Of a DNA stretch of 64,000 nucleotides, positions 4,825-8,225 are shown piece by piece. Position numbers and translations under genes: made by a program. The notes below the pieces were generated by a model, which did not search any database, had not been told where the DNA came from, and worked only from the letters and a program-made list of their open reading frames with translations. The stretch's first letter is position 1. Each line of letters begins with the position of its first letter. This stretch comes from Ignisphaera sp. (lineage in GTDB: Archaea > Thermoproteota > Thermoprotei_A > Sulfolobales > Ignisphaeraceae). Location: NCBI GenBank assembly GCA_038831005.1, contig JAWBKZ010000001.1, positions 62,001 through 126,000 on the forward strand, written 5' to 3'.

Positions 4825-4907
4825 ACAACAATTAGATGATGTTTGCACCTCCTATCTGAATAATGATGAACGGTAAGAGTACTGAAGAAAGGTGGTGGAG
4901 TGAGAAT

Positions 4908-5912
4908 ATGGGATACGTTATAGGGGTTGATATAGGAGGTACATGGATTAGAATAGCACTAGCTTCAAAAGATGGCTCTATAACCAAGAGATACACTATG
5001 TCAACTCCTAGGGAAGGAGATAGATACACAATTGCAAACACTATAGCTGAGATAATTTGGAATAGATTTTCTGGTTATGTTCAAGATATCGAGGCTATCG
5101 GTATAGGTACAGCGGGACCTCTAGATCTACCTAAAGGTACTGTAATAGGAGCACCTAATATACCTATACATGTGTTTGAATTAGGTAAACCGCTTATAGA
5201 GGAATTCAAAAAACCTGTGATTGTTGCAAATGACTGTATTGCTGCTGTATGGGGGGAAAAGCTATTTGGTTTAGGTCGAGACAAAAGCAACATAGTTTAC
5301 ATAACTTTGAGTACAGGTATAGGAGGTGGGATCATTGTAAACGATATACTACTTTTGGGTAAAATGGGTAACGCGCACGAAGTAGGACATATGGTTATAG
5401 ATGTTGAAGGTAGAATGGAATGTGGCTGCGGTGGCAGAGGTCATTGGGAAGCCTATGCGGGTGGCGCAAATATTCCGAGATTTGCTTCAAACATTATAAG
5501 GGATTCCGAACTAGATGTTGAAGAGAAAGGTTCACCAATATATAGAGCGTTTATCGAGCAAAAACTAACGTCTGAGATGATATACAGAGAAGCATCTAAA
5601 GGCGATAAACTTGCTCTCAAGATTGTTAATGAAATCAATAAATACAATATTGCTGGATTCGAAAACGTAATAAATGCTTACGATCCGGAGATAGTTACTG
5701 TTGGAGGCGCTATAGCGCTTAAGAATCCTCAAACACTTGTTGTTGAGCCTATAAGAAGGGGTATCGAGAATTCGAAAGGCGTGGTCACGCATAGACCAAG
5801 AATAGAATTGACATCTCTCGGAGAAGATATAGTGCTAATAGGAGCGGTAGCATTAGCTGTAAATCCTCCAAGAAACCTCATTTCTATGCTGAAATATCTA
5901 GAACAACTGTAG
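4908..5912 (+). CDS. ROK-family ATP-dependent hexokinase/glucokinase
   Basis: Phosphorylates glucose or related hexoses at the entry to glycolysis. The start shows the actin-fold phosphate-1 motif (VIGVDIGGTWIRIAL). A second phosphate motif, LSTGIGGGIIV, lies at about residues 135-145. The zinc-binding ROK signature MECGCGGRGHWEAY follows at about residue 170, with all expected cysteines. The length of about 334 residues matches crenarchaeal broad-specificity hexokinases. The ATG at 4908 is preferred over an upstream ATG at 4863 because GGTGGTGGAG at 4891-4900 is a strong ribosome binding site and the family starts here. The glycosylase gene begins five bases after the stop. Sugar specificity cannot be read from the sequence. 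Confidence 0.93.
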   Translation: MGYVIGVDIGGTWIRIALASKDGSITKRYTMSTPREGDRYTIANTIAEIIWNRFSGYVQDIEAIGIGTAGPLDLPKGTVIGAPNIPIHVFELGKPLIEEFKKPVIVANDCIAAVWGEKLFGLGRDKSNIVYITLSTGIGGGIIVNDILLLGKMGNAHEVGHMVIDVEGRMECGCGGRGHWEAYAGGANIPRFASNIIRDSELDVEEKGSPIYRAFIEQKLTSEMIYREASKGDKLALKIVNEINKYNIAGFENVINAYDPEIVTVGGAIALKNPQTLVVEPIRRGIENSKGVVTHRPRIELTSLGEDIVLIGAVALAVNPPRNLISMLKYLEQL

Positions 5913-5916
5913 GATC

Positions 5917-6840
5917 ATGAGGACGATAAATGTTAATCCAGAACTAGACCTCGAGCTACTTTTTTATCCGTCTTTTGTATCACCATTACTTGATATATGT
6001 AGAGACAAAGTAAAGAAACGTTGGGGTAATTGTGCAGGACTCGTAATAGAAAAAAATAACGATAAAATTAAGCTATATCATAGTAATACAGAATGTCTAG
6101 AATATGCAGAAGAAATTCTAGGTCTATGGTCTCTACCAAAACGTATAGCATCTAATGTTAGTAGAAGATATAGAGATGTTGTTGAAAGACTTGTTGAAAA
6201 ATATGAATGGTTTGGTATAGCTACATCTTCTCAAGACGATGTAGAAATATTTTCATCCATAATTTTATCCAAAAACACAAACTTTCACTCAAATGTTGTT
6301 AGATGGATTAGAAATGTATTAGAGGGGTATGATTGTATATCTGCTTTATTAAATATTGGTATGAGAGAAGTCTCAGAATATATTGGCAAAAGCTACCAGA
6401 TCTATGAACTAATAAATGTTCTAAGGATATACATGAAATTAAGAGACAATATTCTATCTCTAAACGATGTATATTTACTCAAAAAGCTTCTGTTAGGTAT
6501 AAAAGGTGTGGGTCTGAAAGTCTTTAATGCATATATGCTTTTCGTGAAAAAGAGTACACTATATGCTCCTATAGATAGGAATTTGATAAGTTTTCTAAAG
6601 AGATTTGAATCAACATCAGATATTGTTACAGAGTTACCAAGAAAGGACTTGTGTGAAAAATATGTATGTAATTTATGTACATCAAGATATGTATGCTCAT
6701 ACTACAGGTTTCAGGAGGCGTTTAAAGAATTATCAGGATGGATTCAAACAATAGCGTATGTATATAACAAAACTAGATGCAGCAAGGTATTGTGTTCTAG
6801 TTGCATACTAAAGGATCTATGTAGAGATAGAAAGATATGA
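5917..6840 (+). CDS. HhH-GPD-type DNA glycosylase/lyase with two tandem four-cysteine motifs
   Basis: A 307-residue protein read as a base-excision repair glycosylase. The middle holds a helix-hairpin-helix, GIKGVGLK at 194-201. Its terminal lysine sits where the catalytic lysine of endonuclease III lies, and an aspartate in APIDRN at residue 220 corresponds to the catalytic aspartate. An upstream helix, SIILSKNTNFHSN, resembles the 'LSQNT' stretch of the family. The C-terminus has two four-cysteine loops of identical spacing C-x4-C-x2-C-x5-C (residues 246-260 and 288-302). Endonuclease III has one such iron-sulfur loop, C-x6-C-x2-C-x5-C. It lies in a run with apgM and hexokinase, ATG at 5917 with an AGGATC ribosome binding site. 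The substrate base is unknown. Confidence 0.72.
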   Translation: MRTINVNPELDLELLFYPSFVSPLLDICRDKVKKRWGNCAGLVIEKNNDKIKLYHSNTECLEYAEEILGLWSLPKRIASNVSRRYRDVVERLVEKYEWFGIATSSQDDVEIFSSIILSKNTNFHSNVVRWIRNVLEGYDCISALLNIGMREVSEYIGKSYQIYELINVLRIYMKLRDNILSLNDVYLLKKLLLGIKGVGLKVFNAYMLFVKKSTLYAPIDRNLISFLKRFESTSDIVTELPRKDLCEKYVCNLCTSRYVCSYYRFQEAFKELSGWIQTIAYVYNKTRCSKVLCSSCILKDLCRDRKI

Positions 6841-6922: not shown

Positions 6923-7654
6923 ATGAAGCCACTAACCATAGTGCTAGCTGAGTCGGGTATAGAGCTTGTACCAAGATCTATTCAAAGCCATTCATCAGTT
7001 ATTAGTAGTGCAAGAAAAAGAAATAAGAATCCTTCTCAAATACTACTTGATATATCTCTTCATTACAGAGCTATGAAAAAACTCAATGAATGGTATAAAA
7101 GAGGTAGACCAGATATTGTTCACATTTCTCTACTTAACGCATTTTCCAGTCCACTAAATATTGCAAAACTTTTGAGAGTGTATATTCATACATATGATAA
7201 TAGGATAATCCATATAGATCCTTCTACACGTATTCCTAGGAATTACAATAGATTCGTAGGCTTAATGGAGCAACTACTACTCGTTGGTAAGGTTCCTCCG
7301 GAGAGCGCTAATCCCTTAATATTTATCGAGAAAAAACCTTTGTCAGTATTTATATCTGAAAAATCTTTTGATAGAGTACTCATAATGCATGAAAAAGGAG
7401 ATCTAATACCCCCAAGCTCTTTGGGTATTTCAATAGTTAAGGATATGAAGAACGATAGAAATGTATGTATAATTATTGGAGCATTTCAGCATGGGGATTT
7501 CAGGAAGGAATTTTTAACAATATCGAGAGAACATGTATCAATATTTCCTAAACCATTAGATTCATGGATAGTTGTATCTAGAGTTATTGAAGGTATTGAA
7601 AATACTTTAAACATATACGCAAGCAAATCACTTAATATGGACATAAACATTTAA
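6923..7654 (+). CDS. nep1: Nep1/Emg1 rRNA pseudouridine N1-methyltransferase
   Basis: Methylates N1 of a pseudouridine in helix 35 of small-subunit rRNA and assists ribosome assembly, using S-adenosylmethionine. Family hallmarks are present: ILLDISLHYRAMKKL at about residue 40, KRGRPDIVHISLLNAF at about 60, the RIPRNYNRFVGLMEQLL segment near 105, and the SAM-site stretch IIGAFQHGDF near 193. The length of 243 residues is slightly above the archaeal norm. The start is the ATG at 6923; no clear ribosome binding site precedes it. The neighbour upstream is the glycosylase, 82 bases away. Confidence 0.93.
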   Translation: MKPLTIVLAESGIELVPRSIQSHSSVISSARKRNKNPSQILLDISLHYRAMKKLNEWYKRGRPDIVHISLLNAFSSPLNIAKLLRVYIHTYDNRIIHIDPSTRIPRNYNRFVGLMEQLLLVGKVPPESANPLIFIEKKPLSVFISEKSFDRVLIMHEKGDLIPPSSLGISIVKDMKNDRNVCIIIGAFQHGDFRKEFLTISREHVSIFPKPLDSWIVVSRVIEGIENTLNIYASKSLNMDINI

Positions 7655-7715: not shown

Positions 7716-8225
7716 ATGGTTATGCATATGGATAGAGAAAGCGAAAAAGAAGTCATAACAAAATGTTGCGCTCTTGTTGATGTTCTTGTCGATATTGTTA
7801 GGAATCAAGAGAACTGCATAGAAATGCTAATTGATTATTCTCTAACAAGATATCCCTACATCTCTGCCACACTATACCTACTAGATTGTAAACATACTCA
7901 AAACATCTGGGGCAATCTACTGTACACTGATGTTGTAAGTATCACTATGAAGATAGATACACTATATAAGGACAGTATTAACTTATTTGAAGACATTATT
8001 CTGCTTAAAATCAGCTGTCAACATTCATGGATTGAATATGGTTATACCGTTTCTAGATCTTCTTCAGGTATATATAGTGTAGTCAAGTGTTGGTCTATAG
8101 GTTATGATGGTAAAAGGAATGTATTAAAAGGATTTGAAGAAGGTATATGTAGAAATGTTTTAGAATTAGTTATGGAGATAGTAAAGAAAACTAAGATGAT
8201 TATGGATAGCGAAGGTCTGATCTAA
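7716..8225 (+). CDS. Uncharacterised protein
   Basis: A 169-residue protein I do not recognise. It is mixed helix and strand, with several cysteines scattered through it (an adjacent pair near the start, and one in the C-terminal half) but no obvious metal-binding pattern, signal peptide or membrane segment. Start alternatives are ATGs at 7716, 7722 and 7728. Base composition and AGA/ATA-rich codons match the neighbours, which supports a real gene. It lies 61 bases after nep1 on the same strand. Confidence 0.6.
   Translation: MVMHMDRESEKEVITKCCALVDVLVDIVRNQENCIEMLIDYSLTRYPYISATLYLLDCKHTQNIWGNLLYTDVVSITMKIDTLYKDSINLFEDIILLKISCQHSWIEYGYTVSRSSSGIYSVVKCWSIGYDGKRNVLKGFEEGICRNVLELVMEIVKKTKMIMDSEGLI

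Follow-up and report, generated by a model that had tools for sequence, protein, structure and literature searches.

The window analyzed here, by which we mean the whole stretch of 64,000 nucleotides of DNA from Ignisphaera sp., a heat-loving archaeon, carries an open frame with an ATG start that encodes a protein of 307 amino acids and belongs to a genome of 1.70 Mb (Table 1). The one frame that was translated from the opposite strand of this interval (5917–6840) contained many stops, and the program-made list of open reading frames (ORFs) held none of 60 or more amino acids that overlapped it.

Table 1. Coordinates of the glycosylase gene and of its features, given as positions in the window.
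Feature	Position	Strand	Basis or remark
Whole gene, 307 aa	5917..6840	+	Predicted OGG1-fold HhH-GPD glycosylase; 153 homologous ORFs
N-terminal region, residues 1-97, OGG1 A-domain side	5917..6207	+	AlphaFold model; VIA alignment, model residue 1 on OGG1 residue 23
P18-S19-F20	5968..5976	+	F20 would be the OGG1 Gly42 place, provided that the initial offset of 22 persists
Helix-hairpin-helix, residues 185-209, GIKGVG hairpin	6469..6543	+	AlphaFold secondary structure; EndoIII and OGG1 profile matches
K201, catalytic-type lysine, OGG1 K249 position	6517..6519	+	153/153
D220, catalytic-type aspartate, OGG1 D268 position	6574..6576	+	153/153
Loop 1, C246-x4-C251-x2-C254-x5-C260	6652..6696	+	Cys in 153/152/153/153 of 153; structure ranges; family-specific insert between GPD Asp and last helix
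Last long helix, residues 261-286, with Q277 and Y281	6697..6774	+	AlphaFold model; ORF conservation
Q277-T-I-A-Y281	6745..6759	+	Place and spacing (i, i+4) of OGG1 Gln315/Phe319
Loop 2, C288-x4-C293-x2-C296-x5-C302	6778..6822	+	EndoIII/MutY iron-sulfur loop position; complete in 77/153

Upstream of the gene, 4 bases separate the end of an ORF for a ROK-family kinase (4863–5912 with its stop, forward strand) from the ATG of the glycosylase, and it is possible that the two genes share a transcript. Downstream lies the gene of an EMG1/Nep1 methyltransferase (6923–7651, forward strand), which also adjoins the glycosylase gene in near relatives, in a relative orientation that differs between one of them (L002) and two others (L004 and L005). 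Beyond it, an ORF of 169 amino acids (7716–8222, forward strand) had no Pfam match at E 0.001 and is kept near EMG1 in relatives of the same genus with an identity of only about 26–30%, far below that of its neighbors. When loci longer than 3 kb were compared, the neighboring genes recurred only within the same genus and family, and we rejected the neighbors (the ROK kinase, a phosphoglycerate mutase, EMG1/Nep1, an unknown ORF and an HMG-CoA synthase-like gene) as a hint to function.

The earlier note on this DNA had drawn attention to two motifs of the form C-x4-C-x2-C-x5-C spaced by 42 residues. Both are present (CEKYVCNLCTSRYVC, residues 246–260, loop 1; CSKVLCSSCILKDLC, residues 288–302, loop 2), and their spacing is 42 residues from start to start. 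The lysine and the aspartate that had been singled out as catalytic-type, K201 and D220, are there as well and are identical in all of the 153 homologous ORFs described below. In 200,000 shuffles of the 307-residue sequence, at least one such motif appeared in 66 and two appeared in none, ruling out a chance origin of the double motif. The comparison that had been made with EndoIII and MutY, as enzymes with one such loop, also held: the genomic EndoIII paralogues (L026–L030) have one C-x6-C-x2-C-x5-C, and close relatives of the 307-residue protein retain two separate four-cysteine loops.

Assignment of the protein to the HhH-GPD type was borne out by profile and fold comparison, whereas Pfam and NCBIfam were silent, returning sub-threshold matches to unrelated families only; those to Peptidase_S64 and to pyrroline-5-carboxylate reductase were weak, fell below the cut-offs and were discarded. 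A profile of the family aligned with the EndoIII of the same genome at an hhalign probability of 99.3, and matched some OGG1 chains from the Lys/Asp through the GW-x-Q helix (best E 2.2e-5, for 3ih7; HMMER), with K201 and D220 aligned by HMMER to Lys249 and Asp268 of OGG1. The curated NCBIfam model for ogg (TIGR00588) did not match the 307-residue protein at E 0.1, nor at E 10, and matched 30 of 44 family members at E ≤0.1 (best 3.7e-10), while the AGOG model PF09171 gave no match to the 307-residue protein at E 10. The predicted glycosylase belongs to an archaeal family that is without a library name.

With the single 307-residue sequence as query, matches were found in 27 of 60 near genomes, EndoIII paralogues among them. 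In the class, 82 of 229 genomes had profile matches of at least 70 bits, fragments counted, and in the phylum, 107 of 398 had matches of at least 110 bits. One conserved motif was scanned in a collection of species genomes, a scan that could miss lineages lacking that motif, and gave 53 stretches, 43 of which were confirmed and all archaeal by title (Desulfurococcales, Pyrobaculum, Thermofilum, Methanomethylicota, Bathyarchaeota, Geocrenenecus, Culexarchaeum and others); of 38 motif matches in viral contigs, none was confirmed as a relative. From 231 loci we counted 153 distinct near-full ORFs. Outside this number are 13 ORFs whose score or coverage was too low, comprising six EndoIII, four fragments of L228 and L231 and three distant sequences (L142, L143 and L227), as well as partial matches in class genomes (e.g., G120, G125, G126, G128, G129 and G194). 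Residues L117, W130, K201, D220, C246, C254, C260 and Q277 are identical in all 153 ORFs, C251 is a cysteine in 152, and position 281 is aromatic throughout (Y in 142, F in 8 and W in 3).

The AlphaFold model of the whole protein (44 sequences; pLDDT 95.4, pTM 0.93) matched the OGG1 fold with both its A-domain and its HhH core. OGG1-type enzymes made up all of the best 50 Foldseek matches listed, and VIA gave Z scores of 22.2 to 4ejy and of 20.7–21.7 to other OGG1/CacOGG chains among the matches listed, typically aligning model residues 1–287 with OGG1 residues 23–325 at an identity of 13–18%; no EndoIII or MutY was among the best 50 VIA matches listed for the whole protein. A glycosylase fold of the proposed type is thus predicted, but the nearest fold is that of OGG1 with an N-terminal A-domain and not that of EndoIII. 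Since the alignment pairs residue 325 of OGG1 with residue 287 of the model, Gln315 and Phe319 of OGG1 would correspond to Q277 and Y281 if the last helix is ungapped, a placement that accords with the HMMER alignments to OGG1. According to passages of a 2012 review, Gln315 of OGG1 hydrogen-bonds 8-oxoguanine, Phe319 stacks upon it, and Gly42 is a strictly conserved OGG1 residue (PMC3397491). Judging from where the alignment begins and from a Pro-Ser that both sequences have, Gly42 would map to column 20, which holds F in 106 of the 153 ORFs, Y in 29, L in 12, I in 3, P in 1 and a gap in 2, and never Gly. The likely place of OGG1 Cys253, mapped in a similarly provisional manner, holds A in 101, S in 30, L in 17 and G in 5.

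These observations bear on the substrate. The OGG1 fold together with Q277 and Y281 is what would be expected of a plain 8-oxoguanine glycosylase redundant with AGOG, but the apparent Gly42 place is occupied by Phe, Tyr, Leu, Ile or Pro in all 151 ORFs that have a residue there, and the genome already has an AGOG gene (PF09171 match at G000:C4:107475-108194), so that we regard this reading as possible but somewhat doubtful. The same genome also encodes one EndoIII and one UDG. Among the 82 class genomes with the family at 70 bits or more, 73 also match AGOG (in the control, none of 14 named genomes matched PF09171), and the idea that the gene stands in for a missing 8-oxoguanine enzyme was rejected, given AGOG in its own genome and in these 73.

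We then turn to the loops. Loop 2 is complete in 77 of the 153 ORFs and absent in 74, such as L095 from Pyrobaculum; of the other two, one is cut by the end of its contig (L084) and one has three of the cysteines (L055), and with the exception of these two the 76 ORFs that are not of the two-loop type reach their stop codon. The earlier note had named homologues with only one loop as evidence against its proposal, and both situations are found in the family: 74 ORFs lack loop 2 and 77 keep it, always starting 11 residues after Q277 (77 of 77). The loop that is universal among the homologues is the first and not the second. Since at most one of the 153 ORFs deviates at any loop 1 cysteine and loop 2 is complete in 77, the added loop 1 appears to be universal and the classical loop 2 dispensable.

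In a quick tree of 146 rows, from which both loops had been excluded and 7 of the 153 ORFs had been dropped for an identity of at least 90%, the state of loop 2 requires 7 changes over the 144 labelled rows (two being unlabelled), as compared to a mean of 48 when the labels were shuffled, and the well-supported branches force at least 5 changes. The tree is unrooted, and by itself does not separate gain of loop 2 from loss; repeated loss would be the simpler story because the EndoIII/MutY loop sits at the same place. Two individual sequences look like losses: L055 (G173) keeps three of the loop 2 cysteines and has a changed tail, and L010 (G049) has no cysteine past the last helix, although its neighboring rows in the tree do. 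In L021, L121, L132 and related rows, which have loop 1 only, a longer C-terminal tail replaces loop 2; these long-tail members lie within a single well-supported branch, whose 25 rows all lack loop 2 and which includes four relatives of the same genus (L021, L023, L024 and L025).

Because no EndoIII or MutY appeared in the VIA listing for the whole protein, the fragment of residues 98–307 was also modeled (pLDDT 91.7, pTM 0.88). EndoIII (2abk, residues 23–208) and MutY (residues 26–220) aligned with this fragment up to its last residue, with Z scores of 11.8–14.2 among the matches listed, whereas OGG1 and CacOGG aligned only to fragment residues 187–193, which is about residue 287 of the full protein. 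Since the EndoIII and MutY alignments traverse loop 2 and those of OGG1 stop before it, loop 2 would occupy the place of the classical EndoIII/MutY loop and loop 1 would be an insert, a structural placement taken from the ends of the alignment ranges. Distances along the chain are consistent with this placement: from the catalytic Asp to the first cysteine of loop 2 there are 68 residues, or 50 when the loop 1 segment (243–260) is subtracted, and the corresponding distance in the genomic EndoIII L026 is 52. In 23 of the 77 complete loops 2, the first two cysteines are separated by x6 or x7, and all 23 have a proline two positions before the second cysteine, as do the EndoIII paralogues; the spacing 6-2-5 occurs in 15 of the 77, and the 307-residue protein has x4 at this site. 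The Pfam model of the EndoIII loop (PF10576, EndIII_4Fe-2S), which two EndoIII controls passed, matched 2 of 4 scanned members whose loop 2 has the long spacing (E 0.007 and 0.43, neither reaching the cut-off), the former being L216 with the loop 2 CKIKNPKCDECPIKNLC; it matched 2 of 44 family members at E 1 and gave no match to the 307-residue protein at E 10. Contrary to this placement, hhalign and HMMER put loop 1, and not loop 2, on the EndoIII loop, which gives the better sequence match at the cost of a gap of about 26 residues; we prefer the structural placement. With regard to loop 2 as a possible copy of loop 1, the identity between the loops at non-cysteine positions, in the 35 proteins in which both have the 4-2-5 spacing, was 2.06 of 11 within a protein and 1.56 across proteins.

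As to the metal in loop 1, its spacing is 4-2-5 in 65 and 6-2-5 in 31 of the 153 ORFs, and a proline follows the third cysteine in 98 of 153 (in loop 2, in 36 of 77). We take these spacings and this proline to favor an iron-sulfur site, and [4Fe-4S] is more likely than zinc. Elsewhere in the family the spacing is loose (2 to 12 residues between the second and third cysteines and 3 to 7 between the third and fourth), and this looseness, together with the zinc linchpin of MUTYH, makes zinc a candidate. The distant members L208, L223, L210, L216 and L225 have more than 2 and up to 12 residues between the second and third cysteines, which suggests that loop 1 tolerates inserts. A protein with mixed metals, that is, with [4Fe-4S] in loop 2 as in MutY and structural zinc in loop 1, has a precedent in MUTYH, described in passages of one study as a glycosylase with [4Fe-4S] plus zinc (PMC12000561), and a zinc site would be expected to tolerate a spacing that varies while four cysteines are kept; but the commonest spacings of loop 1 are of the loop 2/EndoIII type with the proline frequently in place, and the weak matches of loop 1, although below the cut-offs, go to iron-sulfur families (EndIII_4Fe-2S in L096, E 0.19; WhiB in L080, E 0.013). 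We consider such a mixture rather unlikely.

AlkA has a two-domain architecture, which the 307-residue protein shares, and is not known to have a catalytic lysine. A glycosylase for alkylpurines of the AlkA kind is on balance unlikely: PF00730 finds the EndoIII gene as its sole match in the genome, and hence no ordinary AlkA was seen with a model that misses the 307-residue protein too, but the lysine is present in 153 of 153 family members. That the cysteines form metal-free disulfides stabilizing the protein at high temperature is very improbable: some hyperthermophilic crenarchaea commonly contain intracellular disulfides, but the position and spacing are those of the known iron-sulfur loop, four cysteines within 15 residues would better fit tetrahedral metal binding, and the loop 1 cysteines are almost invariant.

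We consider it likely, on the strength of the sequence and the predicted model, that the 307-residue protein is a HhH DNA glycosylase/AP lyase of the OGG1 fold with two separate metal sites, and that its substrate is perhaps not plain 8-oxoguanine. The protein, read as an OGG1-fold glycosylase, would work like OGG1. A damaged purine, which may be other than plain 8-oxoguanine, would be flipped into a pocket of the OGG1 type, where Gln277 would read it and Tyr281 would stack on it; Asp220 would activate Lys201, which would displace the base and could cut the strand. A [4Fe-4S] cluster in loop 2, as in EndoIII and MutY, would staple the C-terminus. Since loop 1 stands, in the HMMER alignments, where OGG1 has the segment that connects its catalytic Asp with its last helix, the second metal site would be expected to brace the base-reading helix, and it may perhaps touch the DNA backbone. 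A bolder reading, which we advance tentatively as a real possibility, is that of an old and separate archaeal branch of the OGG1 fold with two [4Fe-4S] clusters in one catalytic domain, of which the new one, inserted next to the helix that recognizes the lesion, would be indispensable and the classical one optional.

No more than one iron-sulfur cluster is present in the well-studied glycosylases of this type, and in titles and abstract openings of a mostly open-access literature we found none on a two-cluster glycosylase, on an iron-sulfur OGG1 in crenarchaea or on Ignisphaera glycosylases. What the iron-sulfur cluster does in DNA glycosylases, whether it serves structure, DNA binding or charge transfer, is an old question, and the family offers a natural series on one fold: two four-cysteine loops, loop 1 alone and the loop-free OGG1. 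If both loops bind clusters, the number of clusters varies within one scaffold, and effects on stability, DNA binding and redox behavior become testable; if there are indeed two [4Fe-4S] clusters, they would lie at both ends of the base-reading helix and could pass electrons, or could move this helix upon DNA binding. The archaeal 8-oxoguanine glycosylases in passages of the 2012 review are AGOG and OGG2 (PMC3397491), and the family would add to these a predicted two-domain glycosylase of the OGG1 type in archaea. It also points to a base lesion yet to be assigned.

Among known systems, Sis-HhH-GPD of Saccharolobus islandicus is likewise a crenarchaeal HhH-GPD protein with a four-cysteine C-terminal loop, but, as far as passages of its description go, it has one loop (C203, C210, C213 and C219), a Ser in place of the catalytic Asp, and activity on alkylated bases (PMC11754123). 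Mammalian MUTYH, in passages of its description (PMC12000561), is a glycosylase with two metal sites, as is predicted for the 307-residue protein; the MUTYH zinc lies in the interdomain connector, and not in a loop that follows the catalytic Asp and precedes the last helix, as loop 1 does. AGOG and OGG2 are Lys/Asp 8-oxoguanine glycosylases of the same superfamily that occur in archaea, but both have an Asp at the Gln315 place and OGG2 is without an A-domain, according to passages of the 2012 review (PMC3397491), whereas the 307-residue protein has the A-domain side of the OGG1 fold; AGOG, moreover, is a separate gene, and its model PF09171 leaves the protein unmatched. EndoIII and MutY share the HhH core, the Lys/Asp pair (EndoIII) and a four-cysteine loop straight after the last helix, which by the structural placement corresponds to loop 2, but have this single loop and neither an A-domain nor loop 1, and the EndoIII of the same genome is a separate gene. 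By the features compared, the protein is not AGOG, OGG2 or EndoIII/MutY. OGG1 itself (human and mouse OGG1, CacOGG and the MBOgg1 of 4ejy) has nearly the whole fold in common with it, including the A-domain, and the places of Lys249, Asp268, Gln315 and Phe319 are those of K201, D220, Q277 and Y281 in the archaeal family. OGG1 has no four-cysteine loops as against two in the 307-residue protein, and its Gly42 and Cys253 are apparently not kept, with Phe/Tyr/Leu/Ile/Pro and Ala/Ser/Leu/Gly at the places to which they would map. We have not filed the protein as an OGG1, because it has additional loops, apparently lacks Gly42 and Cys253, and goes unmatched by the curated model.
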